From: Isoetes taiwanensis
Taxonomy: Eukaryota > Streptophyta > Lycopodiopsida > Isoetales > Isoetaceae
Reading direction: 5' to 3'
Assembly (NCBI GenBank): GCA_021234155.1
Contig: JAJEKV010000004.1
Location: 11,906,109-11,970,108, forward strand
DNA length: 64,000 nucleotides
Positions 1,076-45,515 of the stretch are shown piece after piece. The notes under the pieces were generated by a model that did not search any database, was not told the DNA's origin, and worked only from the letters and a program-made list of their open reading frames with translations. The first letter of the stretch is position 1; every line of letters starts with the position of its first letter. Both the position numbers and the translations under genes were made by a program.

Positions 1076-1238
1076 TAAAGTCTAAATGCTCCTTGCTCGA
1101 ATTCGCGCCCATTCCATAGCACTCGATTACCGAAATCCAATTTGAAATCGAATTTGAAAATCAAGCTCCCGCTATGGGCTGCTATCAGAATAAAAGCCAA
1201 TTCCATCTTCCAAATTTCAAGCTTATCGATATCAGGTC

Positions 1239-3578
1239 TTGAGGAGGACGATAATAGACATGGTTTCCACAAGAGGTCGGAGAGGAGACGATGGTGAAGC
1301 AAGTAACAAAGTACCTACATCAAGGAAAAGAGTTACTGCTCCAAGGAGGAAGCGTCGGACACCACAGATCAGTGCTGCATCTCCCACAATGCCAAGGAGG
1401 CCAAGCAAGCGAGGGCAGTGGACTGAAGATCAAATGGCAGACATCTTGGATGAGGTAAGTGAGTATGGTATATCTGTTAGAGAGGCATCTAGAAGGTCTA
1501 AAATCCCAGAATCAACAATAAGGGACTGGCTGTATGGTCGTATAACTCACAAACAGACTGGTAATCCACAAATCCTGACGACTCTACAAGAGGAAGAGTT
1601 AGTCAATTGGGCACTCTCCAGGGCCGAGCAGGGAATGGGGGTCACACTCTCAGCTGTCAAGGAAAGGGCAGCACAGATGGCTATGGAGGGGGGCAACTCA
1701 GAATCTCCCCGAGTTTCCGGGAGTAAATGGTGGAAACTGTTCAAACAAAGGCATCCAGAGGTTACACTAAGAAGTGCAGAGACACTAGATGTTGCTCGGG
1801 CTCGTGCTATGACACAAGAGAATCTGGATAACTTTTATACTGGTCTGAGACAGATCTATGACGAGTTCAATTTCCCGGCATCTAGGATCTGGAATGCCGA
1901 TGAGACTGGCATCCAAGCTGGTAAGGTGAAGGGCATGAAGATTATAGGAAGGAAAGGGGAGCATAGGGTCAATGAGGTGGTCATGAACAATAGGGAGTGG
2001 GTGACCATTCTGGTATGTGTAAATGCTGAAGGGTTTAGGTTACCTAATTTGTATATATTCAAGGGTACACGGATGAGGCAAGATAACATTGCCAGATGTG
2101 AGGAAGGGGCAATTCAAGCTGTGCAGCCCTCGGCTTGGATGACTACAGAATTGTTCAAGTCTTGGTTGTCACATTTTGTTGCTAGGGTTCCTGGTGGAGT
2201 ATCTCCAACAAGGCCACATCTGATAATATTGGATGGCCATGGCAGCCATGTAGAGCTGGAAGTGATTTTGGCAGCTAAGGAAATGGGCATACATTTTGCC
2301 CTACTTCCAGCCCACACATCACATAGGTTACAACCTTTGGATGTTGCATGCTTTGCACCATTCAAGGCAGCTTTCAAGAGATTGAGATCTTCTTACATGG
2401 TTAGCAAAGGGAGGACTGAACCGAAGAGGGAGGACATTGCAGAGCTCATTTCACAGGCAGTTGAATCAGGGCTGACACCTAGCAACATCAAGGCAGGGTT
2501 TAGAGCTACTGGGATTTGGCCATTCAACTCGGACAAAGTTAAGCCAGGCCAGGAAAGTGGCAGGTTTGGAAGAGTGCCCATGGAGCAGATTGTCCAAAGT
2601 GTGGGCCAGGAAAATGTAGCCAATTTGGAGGAGGAGGAATTGGAGCAATTCAACATGGCTGACTTGCATGCGTTATGGGAGGCACCACGCCCTGCTGGTG
2701 AGCATGGTGGCCAAGAGCCTAATGGAGTGCATCAACATGTAGTTGACAATGTGGACATTGAAAGTCATGATGTGCATCCATCTCATCAAGAAGACGCACC
2801 ACATGGGGAACATCAGGACATTGAGCAGACCTTACAACCTTCACAGCAACATGTGGTTACACCTGCTGACATGGGAACAACACATGCATGTGTGCAGCTC
2901 CCTACAGAAGTGAGGACATCACAGGCCTGCATGCAACAATCTCAATCCTCGAGGGCAAGGAATCGAGGTGTAGTCCCAGACCTGAGTGGGAGGGTGCATA
3001 TCTCTAGTGATGGCTTCTGTGAAGCCTTGGCTGCTGAGAGGGCTAGGAGAGCTGAGGCAGCAAGACTAAAGAATGAGCAAGTTGCAGCCAGGAAACTCGA
3101 AACTGCTAGAAGGAAATTGGAAAGACAGGAGGCTGCCAGGAGAGCTCAACAGAATAGGGAAGAGAGGGAAAACAGGAAGAAAGCTGATGCAGAATTTGAA
3201 GCCTCTACTGCTAGACTTAGGGCACTAATGTACCCTAGGGGCATCTCAAGAGTTGCAGTAGTCTTCAGCTTTCAGAGACCAATGAGTGATGAGGTGAGGA
3301 GCAAAAGATTAGAGGTTAGAAACAGAATGAGGACAAGGCAAGGGTTGAGTCCAATGAGGGATCCAATATTGAGAACATCATTCACCATGGACCCTGGACT
3401 TCAGCAAGTTAGTGGATTGACCACACCAGTTACTAGTGATCATGCAGGTGACCATGATAGTGAAGATGAAGTGAATGTTATGTGCAGCCTGGAAGATACT
3501 CACCTGTGCTCGGGAGATGTTGGTGGTGTGCAGGATGTTAGCATAGCCCGGGGGGTTCGCCTAGATTATGGGGTATGA
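1239..3578 (+). CDS. pogo/CENP-B-like DDE transposase, intact
   Basis: 779 residues, uninterrupted. A basic N-terminus (RKRVTAPRRKRR, about 29-40) could be a nuclear localisation signal. A Pipsqueak-type helix-turn-helix lies at about 58-98 (GQWTEDQMADIL ... IPESTIRDWL). A CENP-B-type second DNA-binding region is likely at 110-180. The DDE_1 catalytic core has IWNADETG (D221), LDGHGSH (D332) and LQPLDV (D368), so all three acidic positions are present. The C-terminal third (about 560-640) is rich in R, E, A and K and looks like a coiled coil. Met at 1260 is an alternative start and may be the real one, since the protein then opens MVSTRGRRG. No introns are visible. By family this protein binds transposon ends and cuts and pastes DNA in the nucleus. 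Intact frame and motifs suggest a recent or domesticated copy. Terminal inverted repeats were not found. Confidence 0.92.
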   Translation: MRRTIIDMVSTRGRRGDDGEASNKVPTSRKRVTAPRRKRRTPQISAASPTMPRRPSKRGQWTEDQMADILDEVSEYGISVREASRRSKIPESTIRDWLYGRITHKQTGNPQILTTLQEEELVNWALSRAEQGMGVTLSAVKERAAQMAMEGGNSESPRVSGSKWWKLFKQRHPEVTLRSAETLDVARARAMTQENLDNFYTGLRQIYDEFNFPASRIWNADETGIQAGKVKGMKIIGRKGEHRVNEVVMNNREWVTILVCVNAEGFRLPNLYIFKGTRMRQDNIARCEEGAIQAVQPSAWMTTELFKSWLSHFVARVPGGVSPTRPHLIILDGHGSHVELEVILAAKEMGIHFALLPAHTSHRLQPLDVACFAPFKAAFKRLRSSYMVSKGRTEPKREDIAELISQAVESGLTPSNIKAGFRATGIWPFNSDKVKPGQESGRFGRVPMEQIVQSVGQENVANLEEEELEQFNMADLHALWEAPRPAGEHGGQEPNGVHQHVVDNVDIESHDVHPSHQEDAPHGEHQDIEQTLQPSQQHVVTPADMGTTHACVQLPTEVRTSQACMQQSQSSRARNRGVVPDLSGRVHISSDGFCEALAAERARRAEAARLKNEQVAARKLETARRKLERQEAARRAQQNREERENRKKADAEFEASTARLRALMYPRGISRVAVVFSFQRPMSDEVRSKRLEVRNRMRTRQGLSPMRDPILRTSFTMDPGLQQVSGLTTPVTSDHAGDHDSEDEVNVMCSLEDTHLCSGDVGGVQDVSIARGVRLDYGV

Positions 3579-9123: not shown

Positions 9124-10924
9124 GATGACTTCTTCCATGAGGCACGAAGGGTTGCAGAGGATCAAAGTGTGCAAGTATGTGATCGGTTCCTTGACATGGC
9201 ATTACTAGATATTGAAGATCATATGAACTCTGCTGGATGATCTTTAAGGGAGTTTGACTTCATTCTTCCTGAGCGTGCAATAGATCCATATATGATATTT
9301 CGAGATGAGGTATTTCAGGAAGATATGGCAGAGGTGCAAGAAGATGTAGACCGCCTATATAATGACCAACATGTTATCTTTGATCGTGTGATCGATGAAA
9401 CGTGATGTTGGAAAAAGGACAGGTGTTTTTCGTTCATGGTGCAGGCGGCTCGGGAAAGAGTTTCCTTTTTAGCACCATGTTGTCCTATGTTCGTGCCAAA
9501 GGTATCATTGCACTTGCTGCTGCTTCTTCAAGAATTGCTTTCTTTATTGAATTGCATTCAAGATTTAACTTTATTGAAGGGATGAGACATCAACTTGCAA
9601 TATTGCACATTCAAATTTAAGATACCAATTAATGGGTAGATGAGACATAAACATGTTTTTGCAATATACATGGTTGCAAAGAAACAAAGCGATGCTTAAA
9701 CGCAACGCAAAATTGATCAAGAAACAAGTTTTTTTTTTCCAAAAAGTAGGTCTGCCATGCTTTTTGTCATGTAACCCCATTAAATATGGGATGAGGTCCC
9801 CAATGATGCATAAACATGTTTTAACAAATACTATATAGTATGTATGGTCTTGGATAGAATGCTACTATAGGCACTTAGTATTATAAGTGGATATACCATT
9901 TTGTCTTGATGTCATAAGCTAGTGACAAAATATTTGGGGACTCATTGTTGTTTTGGGAGGAGATTTTAGCAACACGCCGCGTGCAACCATGACTGGATAG
10001 AACGCTTGCGGACGATGTGTCGTGACAAAATATTTGGGGGACTCATTGTTGTTTTGGGAGGAGATTTTCGCCAAGTTACCTGTGGTTCCACGAGGAATTC
10101 GACCCCAAATTGTGCATGCTTCCTTAAAGTATTCTTACATATGGGATCATGTCGAGGAACATAAGCTCAACACAAATATGCGGGTAATGAATAATGTGGG
10201 AAGAGATGCGGAAGAGCAAAAAGCATTTGCTGACTATCTCCTACGAGTTGGAGATGGGCCTGAAACCACTTTTTCCAACATTGGATTGGATGTGATACGT
10301 CTTCCGGAAGAGATTTGTGTCAAGTCGCAGGACTTAAATGACTTGCTCGCCGTGTCATTCCCTAATATTTCAACAAATTATAGAAATGTGCCCTATTGGG
10401 TGCAAAGGACGATCCTTACGCCACTAAATGAGGATGTAGACGAAGTAAACAAGAGAATGACAGAGTGGTTGCCCGCTGCACCTATTGATTATTATAGTGC
10501 TGATCGAGCTGTTGATGAGAATGATGCAGGGGTGTATCCTACTGAATTTTTGAATGCACAAACTCGGAGTGGGATGCCTCCACATCAATCGACATTGAAG
10601 ATTGGCATGATTGTCATGTTATTGAGGTCTGTTTCTATACGCAAGGGACTTTATAATGGCACCCGCCTCATTATACATTCATTGGGAAGACGTGCTATAG
10701 ATGCCGAGATTGTCACTGGAAAGAATATTGGAAGCAGAGTATTTGTATTTCGAATTCCGTTGGTGCCTAATAATGCAGAACTCCCATTCCAGTTTGAACG
10801 CATGCAATTTCCGCTGCGTCCAGCTTTTGGTATGACGATCAACAAGTCCCAGGGCCAAACAATGAAAATGGTTGGTTTGTATTTGCTAAATCCAGTATTT
10901 GCTCAAGGAATCATAAAGGTATAA
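9124..10924 (+). pseudogene. Helitron RepHel protein, PIF1-like helicase part (broken)
   Basis: Pieces of one helicase read in order. At about 9124-9395 there is a pre-helicase segment with a stop (LLDIEDHMNSAG*). At 9402-9620 is Walker A, VHGAGGSGKS, followed by ALAAASSRIA and HSRF. At about 10024-10074, in another frame, is the Walker B region IVVLGGDFRQ. At 10075-10910 is LPVVPRG through NTNMRV to the motif V/VI region FGMTINKSQGQT. At least one frameshift (about 2 bp missing between GGDFRQ and LPVVPRG), an in-frame stop and a degraded gap at 9620-10020 inactivate it. The Rep nuclease part is absent. The C-terminus leaves the family sequence after NPVFAQG. Helitron helicases unwind DNA for rolling-circle transposition. 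No CTRR end with a hairpin was found downstream. Confidence 0.85.
9922..10069 (+). repeat. 48-bp direct duplication inside the Helitron helicase
   Basis: The block GTGACAAAATATTTGGGG ... GGAGGAGATTTT occurs at about 9922-9968 and again at 10021-10068, a period of about 98 bp. The second copy carries the reading frame for IVVLGGDFRQ. The duplication helps explain the broken frame. Confidence 0.8.
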
Positions 10925-41738: not shown

Positions 41739-41845
41739 TGAAAAGTCGTATTTAATTAAAGTGGGACAAATCTCGAATTTTGGGACTCAGACTGAAAATG
41801 GGACTCATAATGACAAATTTTTTTACATTGAATCGTTGTTAGATC

Positions 41846-42116
41846 AGGGGGAGGGGAAGGGGAAGGGGAGAAGTTGGGGAGAAGTTGGGGGAAGTAATGG
41901 AAGGGGATAAGTTAGAAGAAGGGGGGAGGGAGGAAGTTCGAAAAGGGGGTTGAGAAGAGGGGGCAAGGGGAGGTGAGAGGAGGGTGAGGGGAGGTGAGTT
42001 CGAAAAGGGGGGGAGAGAAGAGGGGGCAAAGGGAGGTGAGTTCGGAAAGAGGGGTGAGAAGAGGGGGCAAGTGGGAAGAGTTGGGGGAGGAGATGAAGGG
42101 AGAAGGGGAGAGGGAA
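41846..42116 (+). repeat. Purine-only G-rich minisatellite
   Basis: About 270 bp that is nearly all A/G on the plus strand, with many runs of 4-7 G. A sub-repeat GTTCGAAAAGGGGG ... GAAGAGGGGGCAA recurs at about 41936, 41998 and 42039. Such tracts can form triplex or G-quadruplex structures. Confidence 0.8.
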
Positions 42117-42244
42117 AAACCAAAATAACTAAAGGGGAATATATCCCCTTGAGATTAAAAATGATAATATTAAAATATAATTAATAATTAATTTAATTAA
42201 ATATAAATTAATTTAATTAATTTAATAAAAAAATATAAACCGTG

Positions 42245-42266
42245 TTCTCGACTAGTGAGTCGAGAA
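42245..42266. repeat. Single palindrome related to the 44.4 kb hairpin array
   Basis: TTCTCGACT (42245-42253), loop AGTG, then AGTCGAGAA (42258-42266). The arms are the same as in the six-unit array 2.1 kb downstream. Confidence 0.8.
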
Positions 42267-42839
42267 TTGAAGAGTCTTTCCTCTGCAAAGCAATTGGACC
42301 TAACTCCTTCTCCAAGCCAATATTCACATAGAAAAAAGCTGGACAGTTCTCAGACACACTGCCCATCTGAAGCACCTTTTTTCATGCTGACTCAAGCCGT
42401 TAAGGCATTTTTTATTTTATGCCATTCGAAAGCACAGCGTTAAGGAAAGACCTGTGCTACTTCGAAAAGGCGAGGCACAGATTTGAATCAAAGAAAGCAC
42501 AGATTGAGAAAGCACAGATTTGAATCAGAGATTTGAGAAGGCCTTGAGTTTGAGAAATCACAGATTTAAGAAGCATGTTTAAGGCATTGGCATGGATTCA
42601 AGAAGCCAGTTTAAGGCTTTGCAGAGCGGGATTGCAGAAGCCAGTTTCAGGTTTTGCAGGCTATGAATGTAATGGAGACATGGAGACGAAGCCGGAGATG
42701 GAGCATCATGCCGGATATCAGAGCACTTATCTCCAAAATCGCCGATATCAGAGCCGCTTGAAGCGCCGCCGCTTGAAGCGCCTCTTGCTGGTGTTGTTCT
42801 TCAAGAAACGGCTATGGCAGATCTGATAATTTCAGGGTC
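42267..42839. other. Element interior before the ENPP fragment
   Basis: Contains repeated GCACAGATTTGA-type blocks at 42474-42570. An unrecognised basic open frame ends TYLQNRRYQSRLKRRR ... at about 42826. TGTTGTTCTTCAAGAAACGG near 42793 recurs at about 43587. Confidence 0.4.
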
Positions 42840-43066
42840 GGAAATGTGGACCCAAAATGGTGGCTGGGGGAACCGATCTGACAGACTGCAGCTGGGCTTA
42901 TATCCGCCACAATATACTGGCCTGGATCTGAGGTTAAAAAAAAGGATGGACCTGCCCTGCTACTTACTGCCCCGAATATAACAAGTCCAAGCCATTCGAA
43001 GAACGGGTCGATTACGTTTTATCCCTCATCGATCTGCCAGTTTCTCAGCGCCCTGACCTGCAATAG
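42840..43066 (+). pseudogene. Captured ENPP (nucleotide pyrophosphatase/phosphodiesterase) fragment, part 1
   Basis: Reads GNVDPKWWLGEPI*QTAAG, then LISATIYWPGSEVKK, then after a frameshift in a run of eight A: GWTCPATYCPEYNKSKPFEE, RVDYVLSLIDLPVSQRPDL. This is the part of plant ENPP proteins just before the QGHxxGPDD motif. A TGA replaces the usual Trp after GEPI. It is exon-like sequence without introns and is not functional. Confidence 0.8.
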
Positions 43067-43367
43067 TTGGAAGGGGAAGTTGGATGTCTAGATCTCCGAT
43101 TATTCCAGAGTTTGAGACCAGATTGTAGGAAAAAGTATTGGGCAGGAGTACCGTGATTGAGAGACCCCGCTGAGCCAGCTGCTTGGCCATAGCCATCATC
43201 GGATGAAGATGGCCGATTCCGGCACCGCAGATGAGCAAAAGATGGGCCGACTTCCTCATCCTTTGAGGGCCGCCGATTGAGAAAAATGCCAATTTGAGAT
43301 GAAATAAGGAGCTTTTATTGCTTCATGTCGGTTTCCCTTTTATCTTCCCCTTCCAACTATTGCAGGT
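43051..43367. repeat. Inverted repeat around the UGT fragment
   Basis: TGACCTGCAATAGTTGGAAG plus six more bases (about 43054-43079) is exactly inverted at about 43342-43367. The pair brackets the UGT fragment and cuts the ENPP sequence in two. Confidence 0.8.
43076..43290 (-). pseudogene. Captured UDP-glycosyltransferase N-terminal fragment
   Basis: On the minus strand: MRKSAHLLLICGAGIGHLHP, then MMAMAKQLAQRGLSITVLLP, the start of the acceptor-binding half of plant family 1 UGTs (GHLxP with the following LAxxLxxRG). It ends near IQLPLPTIAG as the sequence runs into the inverted repeat and antisense ENPP. The C-terminal PSPG box is absent. Likely a captured first exon. Confidence 0.75.
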
Positions 43368-43381
43368 CAATCGGACCAACT

Positions 43382-43548
43382 ATTGCCAGTTTCTCGCAGG
43401 GCCACAAGGTCGGCCCTGATGATTTGAAGATTACAGAAGCTGTTGCGCATGTGGATCGGGTGATTGGGCGGCTGCTAGATGGGCTGGAAGCAAGGAAAAT
43501 GAATGCGAATGTGATTCTTGTGGGCGATCATAGTTCCGCAGGATAATT
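43382..43548 (+). pseudogene. Captured ENPP fragment, part 2
   Basis: Reads QGHKVGPDDLKITEAVAHVD, then RVIGRLLDGLEARKM and NANVILVGDH. This follows part 1 in ENPP proteins, including the QGHxxGPDD and GDH metal-ligand motifs of the alkaline-phosphatase fold. The last 37 bp are duplicated in tandem (about 43489 and 43551). Confidence 0.8.
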
Positions 43549-44034
43549 TTAGCAAGGAAAATGAATGCGAATGTGATTCTTGTGGGTGTTGTTCTTCAAG
43601 AAACGGATTCGTGGTTGCAGATCTGCCGGAAACCAGAGTGGTTTCTCCTTTCCAAGTGGTACAACGGGATCTGCGGCACAAAGGTGTGTACCAAATTTTA
43701 AAATTCAAATATTGGGGGGAAAAAAGGGCGGGGTATAAGAAACAATTAAATAAGTCTTGAAAATAAGTCACGTAGAGTGAGTTTTGAAGTTGTCATAATA
43801 TTTGTATAATAATATTTGTATAATGCATTATTATTAGTTGTAAGGGTAAGTAGAGAATTATTTTTCAGTTGTTATAATGTGCATTATAGGTGCATATGAT
43901 GTCCATTAGATAAATACATGGGGAAGGTCTATTTATCATAGAAAATACATAGGAAATTTATGGGGAGGGTAATTTTTCATAGAAAATACATAAAATATTG
44001 TGTTTATTAAAAAATACATAGTATAGTATAGTGT
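43549..44034. other. Element interior, AT-rich
   Basis: Starts with the second copy of the 37-bp ENPP end and a second copy of the CTTCAAGAAACGG ... GCAGATCTG block. It then becomes AT-rich with no gene recognised. Confidence 0.4.
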
Positions 44035-44280
44035 GTGCTAATACTAATGTGCGTTAGTATAAAATGCTAATGTGTGCTAATACTAATGTGTGCTAATACT
44101 AATGTGTACTAATGTATAAAAATGCTAATGTGTGCTAATACCAATTGTGGTAGTATAAAGTACTAATTGTGTGCTATTTGTGTGCTAATTGTGGTACTAA
44201 TGTGTCCTAATTAAGGTGTGCTAGTATAAAAGGCTAATGTGTGCTAATACTAATGTGTGCTAAATACTAATGTGTTGTGA
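44035..44280. repeat. Degenerate CTAATGTGTGCTAATA array
   Basis: More than ten irregular copies of CTAATGTGTGCTAATA and GTATAAAA(A/T)GCTAATG words in about 245 bp. Confidence 0.75.
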
Positions 44281-44409
44281 GAAAAACAATAAACTATGGT
44301 GTGATAGAATAATAAACTATGGTGGAAAATTAGATGGATAGATAGATGAAATGATGCTCCTCAAAAATAATCTTTGGCCCTTGAAATTGCCTTTTTTTAC
44401 TCTGAGCTG

Positions 44410-44785
44410 CCTTTCTCGACTCGCGAGTCGAGAAAGGCCTTCTGGCCCTTAAAACCTGCGTTTTTAAACGCTTTGGTACGCCTTTCTCGACCGCTGAAGT
44501 CGAGAATGGTATTCTCCGCCCTTAAAACTGCGTTTTTTGGCTTTGCCGCCTTTTCGACTCGCTTGAGTCGAGAAAGGCCTTCGACCCCTAAAACTGTGTT
44601 TTAAGCTTTGGACGCCTTTCTCGACTTCGCCAAGTCGAGAAAGGCCTTCCGACTCCCTAAAACTGCGTTTTTAAGCTTTGAGTTGCCTTTCGACTTCGCT
44701 GAGTCGAGAAAGGCCTTCGACCCTAAAACTGCGTTTTTTAAGCTTTGAGTTGCCTTTTCGACTCATGAGTCGAGAAAGGCTCAGT
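44410..44785. repeat. Tandem array of six hairpin units
   Basis: Units start at 44410, 44481, 44549, 44615, 44686 and 44753, spaced 66-71 bp. Each begins with a palindrome of arms CCTTTCTCGACT/AGTCGAGAAAGG; in unit 1 it is a perfect 28-bp palindrome at 44410-44437. The spacer is C(T/C)AAAACTGCGTTTTTT(A)AGC. Central loop bases vary while pairing is largely kept (for example GACTTCGCCAAGTC in unit 4). Confidence 0.92.
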
Positions 44786-44867
44786 TTGTATTTTCCAAGA
44801 ACTGTGTTTTATTTTACTTTTTTTTTCCTGTAGCATCACTTGACTAACTTGATTTTGTCTCTTGCAG

Positions 44868-45132
44868 TCCTTATCTTGACCAGATAGTACATGCTTGGGA
44901 GCAATGAAAAGACCAGTTCATTGAAGAAAGATGCCGAGAAGAGGGTGGTGACATCAGTTGGACATACAAGCACGTGGCCTATGAAGGAACTCCTCATCTG
45001 ATTTCTATCGCACGTAAGTTGCTCCGTGACTTGGACAGAGCTCCACGCGCCGTTTGCACTAGGTGGTTCATGTGTGAAGAGGGTGTAATCATTGTGATAA
45101 TACGACCATTATGGTCTCTTCACCCACTGTAA
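44868..45132 (+). pseudogene. Exon-like fragment of unknown gene
   Basis: Follows a good splice acceptor (TTTTGTCTCTTGCAG). One frame is open except for a single TGA: PYLDQIVHAWEQ*KDQFIEE, then DISWTYKHVAYEGTPHL and LLRDLDRAPRAVCTRWFM. I do not recognise the family. It may be another captured fragment or the last exon of a lost gene. Confidence 0.4.
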
Positions 45133-45515
45133 TATATATTGTAATGAGCCCATTTATAAATATAAGGTATCTCAAAACTAGTATTTTTTGGTGATTAAGT
45201 AAACAATTTGCTTAATTTTTGTTGGAATTTGTGATCTCTTGTCTACCCACCTAAGAAAATAGAGCCAAAATGTCTTGGTAAAGGAATTCACCCTCACGCG
45301 AAAAACTCTTATTTTGAATGACAAATAAGCCCCAAAAAAGGGACTCGACTCGCTATCAAAGAAAACTGGGAGAAAGCTTGGGTGCACAGTAACAGACAAA
45401 AATTCGAATTAAGGACAGTTTTCGGGTCGGGGTGCTCCTTTTTGTGTAAAATAACAGGGTTCCGAAAAAAAGTGGGAATGGAATGAGTCCCACTTTAATT
45501 AAATACGACTTTGAA

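Follow-up and report, generated by a model that had tools for sequence, protein, structure and literature searches.

Pack-TYPE, or Pack-TIR, transposons (Pack-MULE, Pack-CACTA, Pack-hAT, Pack-PIF and Pack-Mariner) are short elements bounded by terminal inverted repeats (TIRs) that lack a transposase and carry fragments of host genes. A survey of such elements in plants names the MULE, CACTA, hAT, PIF and Mariner groups (PMC8903248). The window, that is, the whole stretch of 64,000 nt of Isoetes taiwanensis DNA analysed here, contains a TIR DNA transposon of 3,769 bp at positions 41743–45511 that is likewise short, TIR-bounded, without a transposase and loaded with host gene fragments, and several copies of its family have their own target duplications, as in the Pack-TYPE elements. 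It differs from them in its chassis, which combines a 4-bp duplication with relatives encoding a DUF7869 protein, and in having one capture nested in another with switch points that can be read. Features are listed in Table 1.

Table 1. Features of the element and its immediate flanks, in window positions.
Feature	Position	Strand	Remarks
TSD, left copy	41739–41742	.	TGAA, 4 bp
Left TIR, 25 bp	41743–41767	+	AAGTCGTATTTAATTAAAGTGGGAC
Left-end family module	41743–42240	+	
Purine-rich tract	about 41846–42119	+	10–63-bp tandem units, within left module; boundaries by eye
Single perfect hairpin	42245–42266	.	TTCTCGACT-N4-AGTCGAGAA
ENPP (type I phosphodiesterase) piece 1, captured	42825–43056	+	91.6–92.9% to loci on C1089, C914, C907
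26-bp inverted copy of UGT sequence 43344–43369	43054–43079	+	TGA overlap with ENPP piece 1; read as template-switch footprint
UGT piece, captured	43080–43375	-	N-terminal codons and upstream DNA; 97.3% to C949, C1037
Filler	43376–43395	+	11-bp UGT repeat (43376–43386) and 12-bp ENPP piece 1 repeat (43384–43395)
ENPP piece 2, captured	43394–43531	+	97.8% to C1089 locus
Exact 36-bp duplicate of 43489–43524	43551–43586	+	
CTAATGTGTG-type short tandem repeat region	44028–44275	+	
Hairpin array	44405–44780	+	~67-bp units, most with TCGACT/AGTCGA hairpin
Right-end family module	44861–45511	+	84–99% in other short copies
Exon-like piece	44868–45013	+	AG before, GTAAG after; stop in every forward frame
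Right TIR, 25 bp	45487–45511	-	complement of AAGTCGTATTTAATTAAAGTGGGAC, exact
TSD, right copy	45512–45515	.	TGAA, 4 bp

The perfect 25-bp inverted repeat with TGAA outside both ends, on which the preliminary description was founded, is found exactly as described. A repeat finder returns an inverted repeat of 26 bp, in which the extra pair is part of the TGAA outside the 25-bp TIR. With up to 2 mismatches allowed, the TIR has 3,370 matches (1,661 + 1,709) in the 1.66-Gb host genome versus 0 for the reversed TIR pattern in the same search, and therefore a chance origin of the TIR is ruled out. Of 30 copies for which both ends were available, 28 have an exact 4-bp target site duplication (TSD) directly outside the TIRs, and its sequence differs among those 28; the exceptions are L011, which has none, and one copy with 5 bp. 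This count leaves out L007, L024, L026, L047 and L048, each with one end missing, and 4 of the 26 facing TIR pairs seen in the genome search were not taken in. When ends are mismatched as a control, a 4-bp duplication appears in 3 of 870 pairings. A genome search for the same ends with 4-bp duplications had been set beforehand as the test to refute the transposon reading, which passed it: many loci carry the two ends together. Alternatively, the structure could be an immobile local rearrangement or a chance inverted repeat, and the host genome indeed yields no empty site, the joined-flank search returning the window's own two flanks and 34 weaker matches. All but one of the latter are to the right flank, and several begin a few bases from the insertion point; since none covers both flanks, they are not empty sites. 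The genome-wide TIR matches with their empty control and the differing duplications refute this alternative, whose probability is vanishingly small. An Rfam search of the window gave nothing at the gathering cut-off.

The TSD length also separates the family from most described superfamilies. Elements of the CACTA group have TIRs that start with CACTA. They leave a 5-nt duplication (PMC8903248) and do not fit a TIR whose first bases are AAGTCG and a duplication of 4 bp. Similarly, the 4-bp TSD in 28 of 30 copies does not agree with Mutator (MULE), with its TSD of 7–12 bp (PMC10741241), as well as hAT (8 nt), PIF/Harbinger (TTA/TAA) and Tc1/Mariner (TA) (PMC8903248). Sola elements come closer, being described as TIR elements of 2–9 kb, sometimes >15 kb, with a 4-bp TSD and a DDD transposase, and as present in the moss Physcomitrella (PMC10741241, PMC3627910). 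The family of the window element shares with them the TIRs, the 4-bp TSD (a criterion in PMC10741241) and the element sizes, a likeness drawn from published descriptions of Sola. The DUF7869 chassis may be Sola, although the NIF-phosphatase gene and the hairpin arrays of the present family go unmentioned in the accounts of Sola given in those two sources.

Longer copies with the same ends measure 5.1 kb and 11.7–12.1 kb, and their products are a DUF7869 protein and a NIF-type phosphatase. DUF7869 is matched in L015–L022 and L046; it is found in all four examined copies of 11.7–12.1 kb and in the 5.1-kb copy, L046. Neither DUF7869 nor NIF is matched in the window copy or in 17 other short-class stretches, which bears out the earlier statement that the element holds no transposase. 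In the scanned pieces of the long relatives Pfam matches are to DUF7869 and NIF, and standard Pfam transposase families are absent; with the 4-bp duplication this makes an origin from a standard superfamily very improbable. The DUF7869 protein is the likely transposase. Residues D460, D594, D633 and D636 are invariant among four DUF7869 proteins drawn from three diverged families, and such aspartates would fit the DDD transposase of Sola. The DUF7869 profile finds no credible counterpart among solved structures (a single meaningless match, E 0.057), and no DUF7869 relatives were found in viral contigs. L047 has an unbroken DUF7869 frame of 830 aa, the end of which lies 0.7 kb from a TIR with 2 mismatches. 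The candidate transposase frame is broken up over several frames in every one of the four 12-kb copies, and the other end of L047 is outside the stretch, so that an autonomous copy both complete and intact was not observed.

The short and long copies are joined by more than the TIRs. The first ~65 bp of the left module and the last 115–170 bp of the right module are shared with the long DUF7869-encoding copies, and nearly the whole left module recurs at 85–94% in nine short-class stretches. The purine tract, the hairpin array and the exon-like piece announced in the preliminary description are present, but the satellites and the exon are not cargo of this element's own: the hairpin array and the exon-like piece are modules that recur across the family. 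The source search for the exon-like piece scored 150 matches out of 1,403 candidates. Counted by hand, 140 of these 150 have an in-frame TGA, 3 have TAA instead and 7 have no stop; the last share the 56-aa frame of most others and are therefore taken as family copies. In the window one reverse frame of the piece is open. The hairpin with 6-bp arms has 6 matches in the window, all within the element, and 0 in 100 shuffles. Changes in the hairpin arms are complementary in 16 of 19 cases, which is not taken as proof of structure since they are mostly C-to-T/G-to-A and deamination could give them. The subterminal hairpins probably serve as binding sites for protein and may also be sites of fork stalling.

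The cargo proper consists, as had been proposed, of host gene pieces, and these match loci with long open frames in the same genome. The fragments of ENPP and UGT reported earlier are both there at 91.6–97.8% identity to host loci, yet they do not lie side by side; the antisense UGT fragment interrupts the ENPP fragment. Pfam Phosphodiest matches ENPP piece 2 at 8.1e-12 and piece 1 at 0.0072, the latter below the cut-off, while host ENPP loci show one long frame each, 436 aa and 437 aa in length, with Phosphodiest at 1.2e-95 and 5.4e-97. The UGT piece retains 97.3% identity over 296–297 bp to both of its host loci, with a Glyco_transf_28 match of 2.1e-4, below the cut-off. The frame at the C949 locus is open for 257 aa, as far as the sequence taken for analysis reaches, and matches plant UDP-glycosyltransferases of solved structure (best E 2e-10). 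Different gene pieces occur in further short copies: L011 has exostosin GT47 (1.2e-15, 1.1e-10) and L003 has an F-box (3.6e-8). Among ten interior segments picked by eye for Pfam, three, from these two elements, have a host-type domain above the cut-off.

The joins form a patchwork of, in order, a 3-bp overlap, the 26-bp inverted UGT copy, an 11-bp UGT repeat and a 12-bp ENPP repeat, the last two overlapping each other by TGC. This compound interior is common to five places, the window and the siblings L023, L024, L025 and L026. The join of the inverted copy with UGT is exact in all four siblings. That of ENPP piece 1 with the inserted patchwork is exact in L023 and L025 and altered in L024 and L026; the UGT/filler/ENPP2 joins are exact in two of the three siblings reaching them (L023, L024), and both are altered in L025. 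Only L023 among the four keeps the whole patchwork exactly. L023 (GCAA) and L025 (TTGA) have both ends and a TSD of their own; in L024 the left TIR was not found within the stretch, and L026 is cut off by a contig end. Judging from these sequences the cargo has been mobilised, as the window copy, L023 and L025 stand at different sites with separate TSDs.

Such joins suggest that a gap was repaired with several template switches in series and that the product then transposed. An ancestor would first have acquired the ENPP fragment, as the junctions suggest. Later, a polymerase filling a break or gap within this fragment would have jumped from ENPP to the UGT sense strand for 26 bp through the 3-bp overlap, next to the UGT antisense strand for 296 bp, then back to UGT for 11 bp, and then to upstream ENPP for 12 bp through another 3-bp overlap. 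A last jump through a 2-bp overlap would have led back into ENPP, at the cost of 31 bp that the C1089 locus has. Transposition of the compound would have followed, giving its five present places. In this process the DUF7869 protein would bind the ends and excise the element, then reinsert it by cuts staggered by 4 bp, and would do so in trans for short copies like the window element. Animal Pack-TIRs attributed to gap filling and FoSTeST are described as having, in the same way, capture joins with microhomology and template switching, and multicopy products that then transposed (PMC8277862); as described there they are mostly hAT and Tc1/Mariner, whereas in the window element the second capture lies inside the first and is inverted.

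Alternatively, the compound can be made by tandem insertion and re-mobilisation, in which neighbouring elements lose their facing ends and the intervening host DNA becomes cargo. This is a published model for Pack-CACTA and other plant Pack-TYPE elements (PMC8903248, PMC13317346), and it could still explain the first capture, that of ENPP. However, by itself it does not produce a UGT piece in opposite orientation inside ENPP, nor the 26-bp inverted copy and the repeats of 11 and 12 bp from both sources at the joins, and the matched ENPP and UGT loci are on different contigs; we hold it to be improbable as the origin of the compound. A non-autonomous, Pack-type cut-and-paste DNA transposon that captured its cargo by gap repair and then transposed is, taken as a whole, a highly probable reading. 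A wider proposal is doubtful, namely that DUF7869 is the hallmark of a plant DNA transposon superfamily so far described little or not at all (DDD-type, with a 4-bp duplication and a NIF-type phosphatase) and, in addition, that the subterminal palindrome arrays cause capture, replication stalling or breaking there and the polymerase switching into unlinked genes, layer on layer, before the element moves.

How DNA transposons capture unlinked gene pieces is an unsettled question, and a 2026 review, in its treatment of unlinked fragments, leaves room for an undiscovered route (PMC13317346). Close source-gene matches, several siblings and junctions recording the successive jumps are all still in this genome, and the gap-repair account is therefore directly testable. 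With TIRs and a TSD, no transposase within, end-sharing relatives that encode a candidate one and source loci in the host, the element, judged by its sequence, works in the Pack-type manner, on a chassis with a 4-bp TSD and DUF7869. Pack-type capture would thereby be extended to a DUF7869 family with 4-bp duplications that has very many copies in a plant-like genome.

The 25-bp inverted repeat with TGAA outside, reported in the preliminary description, is exact at both ends of the element (see table). At up to two mismatches, this terminal inverted repeat (TIR) gives 1,661 forward and 1,709 reverse matches in the 1.66-Gb genome; the pattern written backwards gives none. Searches with the 200-bp ends returned 1,469 (left) and 2,028 (right) rough first-look candidates, 40 of each being scored. 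Among 100 perfect TIRs listed, 26 facing pairs within 15 kb were found by eye. Since 12 pairs are spaced at 3.4–5.8 kb and 14 at 10.9–14.8 kb, the family appears to split into a short and a long size class. Thirty copies with both ends were compared for target site duplication (TSD), namely 22 of these pairs, 7 copies found by similarity, and the window element; five further stretches with one end missing are left out of the count. An exact 4-bp TSD, varied in sequence and AT-leaning, flanks 28 of the 30, the exceptions being 5 bp in L015/L016 and none in L011 (L-numbers denote stretches fetched from the same genome). When left flanks were set against the right flanks of other copies, only 3 of 870 matched. 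These counts settle the inverted repeat as the mark of a transposon, as had been proposed, with both ends recurring together. The genome search found no empty insertion site of the window element. Judging by the long PPR-protein frame in the window, the host is probably a land plant.

Features of the window and their coordinates
Feature	Position	Remarks
TIR-bounded element	41743–45511	3,769 bp; perfect 25-bp inverted ends, TGAA either side
ENPP piece 1	42825–43056	92.9% identity to contig C907
ENPP piece 2	43394–43531	97.8% identity to contig C1089
Right flank	45512 onward	matches a diverged dispersed repeat, starting a few bases from the insertion point in several copies
Tc5/pogo-like transposase frame	1194–3575	uninterrupted, 794 aa; DDE_1 4.1e-25, HTH_Tnp_Tc5 4.6e-8
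PIF1-like helicase frame	10001–10921	307 aa; perhaps a Helitron remnant
PPR-protein frame		long

The window element works like a Pack-type element, a short non-autonomous TIR transposon with host gene fragments, and shows each feature tested. Mutator, CACTA, hAT, PIF and Mariner are ruled out as the chassis by the target duplication of the family. Sola is the best candidate because a 4-bp duplication and a DDD enzyme are reported for it, a likeness drawn from published descriptions. In a weak literature search, none of the titles and abstract openings listed describes gene capture by Sola-type elements of plants.

Between the window element and the four long copies examined, similarity is limited to about 65 bp at the left end and 115–170 bp at the right. 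All four, and the 5.1-kb copy L046 (TSD TTCT), encode a DUF7869 protein and a NIF-type phosphatase (NIF in L046, E 1.2e-10; DUF7869 in L047, E 8.4e-44). The NIF-type (CTD-phosphatase-like) gene occurs along with DUF7869 in 5/5 two-ended long-type copies, e.g. at L046:1304–1972. Neither protein has a match at E 1e-3 in the 17 short-class stretches (L003–L014, L023–L026 and L049, some incomplete) or in the window element, in keeping with its first description as holding no transposase. The coding sequence of the putative transposase is spread across several reading frames in each of the four 12-kb copies, where introns are possible, and is uninterrupted over 830 aa in L047; no complete intact autonomous copy was found among the long copies examined. 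With a 108-aa DUF7869 query, the 150 matches scored out of 9,024 rough candidates have 89–99% identity, most being stop-free. The aspartates in DxMDQ, QLDN and GHTHDxID are conserved in diverged DUF7869 families of this genome (L043, L045). We infer that the DUF7869 protein is likely the DDD-type transposase for this family; the term DUF7869 was not found in the literature searched. The other DUF7869 families, L043, L044 and L045, have long open frames of 987, 857 and 600 aa, and L044 has a second, of 469 aa, on the opposite strand, without a match in a Pfam search.

The satellite-like array and exon-like piece noted earlier are both present, yet neither is special to this copy. A 9-bp-arm hairpin, TTCTCGACT-N0-8-AGTCGAGAA, has 8,263 genome matches against 1 in a reversed control. 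Its 6-bp-arm form occurs 78 times across 20 collected elements, in all except L046. It is absent from the other 60 kb of the window and from L043–L045, the three stretches examined that hold other DUF7869 families, so that the hairpin looks like a feature of the window element's family; perhaps it is a binding site. Folded as single strands, the array is far more stable than shuffled versions (z −9.6), as expected of palindromes. Splice-site-like edges bound the exon-like piece, which shows 86–97% identity in 12 short copies, L023 matching in two parts and L013 over 30 bp only. Every forward frame contains a stop and one reverse frame is open; from 1,403 rough candidates, TGA is in frame in 140 of the 150 scored, by our own count. 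The piece is a right-end module of the family.

The ENPP and UGT fragments first described as contents are indeed there, but the UGT fragment lies antisense between two ENPP pieces. The ENPP loci on contigs C1089 and C914 each hold a single frame, 436 and 437 aa long respectively, that contains the full Phosphodiest domain. The UGT fragment is 97.3% identical over 296–297 bp to loci on contigs C949 and C1037. Alone, its Pfam match falls below the cut-off, and the name is given on account of the C949 frame, which resembles plant UDP-glycosyltransferases of solved structure (best E 2e-10; paralogous frame 2.1e-8). UGT matches are paired about 44 kb apart on both contigs (C949:878119 and 921642; C1037:1137191 and 1181237), which suggests that these regions are duplicated or uncollapsed. 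Elsewhere, ENPP pieces that lack the UGT insert are found at 77–92% identity, among them one in the TIR- and TSD-verified L010; some of the remaining ones may be mere relics of genes, not elements. The simplest order is ENPP first, UGT afterwards.

Capture is also indicated by sequence matches in other family copies. Ten segments of further short copies were picked by hand: exostosin GT47 is matched by two from L011 (1.2e-15 and 1.1e-10), F-box by one from L003 (3.6e-8); the remaining seven gave nothing above the cut-off. The exostosin-bearing element also holds a repeat of about 385 bp (L011:1314–1700), which looks young, its several copies being 98–100% identical.

The compound ENPP/UGT interior is common to five places, the window and the siblings L023, L024, L025 and L026, of which L026 is truncated where its contig stops. 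The final bases of ENPP piece 1 are CCCTGA, and their TGA is shared with a 26-bp inverted UGT copy, after which come 296 bp of antisense UGT. Next, an 11-bp UGT repeat shares TGC with a 12-bp repeat of ENPP piece 1, and this second repeat overlaps the resumed ENPP piece 2 by TC; 31 ENPP bases are absent relative to the C1089 locus. Such patchwork joins are not explained by tandem insertion alone, the model put forward for Pack-TYPE elements (PMC8903248, PMC13317346). Serial template switching in gap repair would leave them, and template switching during gap repair is described as a capture route for animal Pack-TIRs (PMC8277862). The join between inverted copy and UGT is exact in 4/4 siblings, that between ENPP piece 1 and filler in two of four (L023, L025; altered in L024, L026), and those of UGT, filler and ENPP piece 2 in two of the three reaching them (L023, L024; altered in L025). 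Since the joins are kept exact in all or part of the siblings, the event that formed them is most likely older than the spread of the compound, with drift afterwards.
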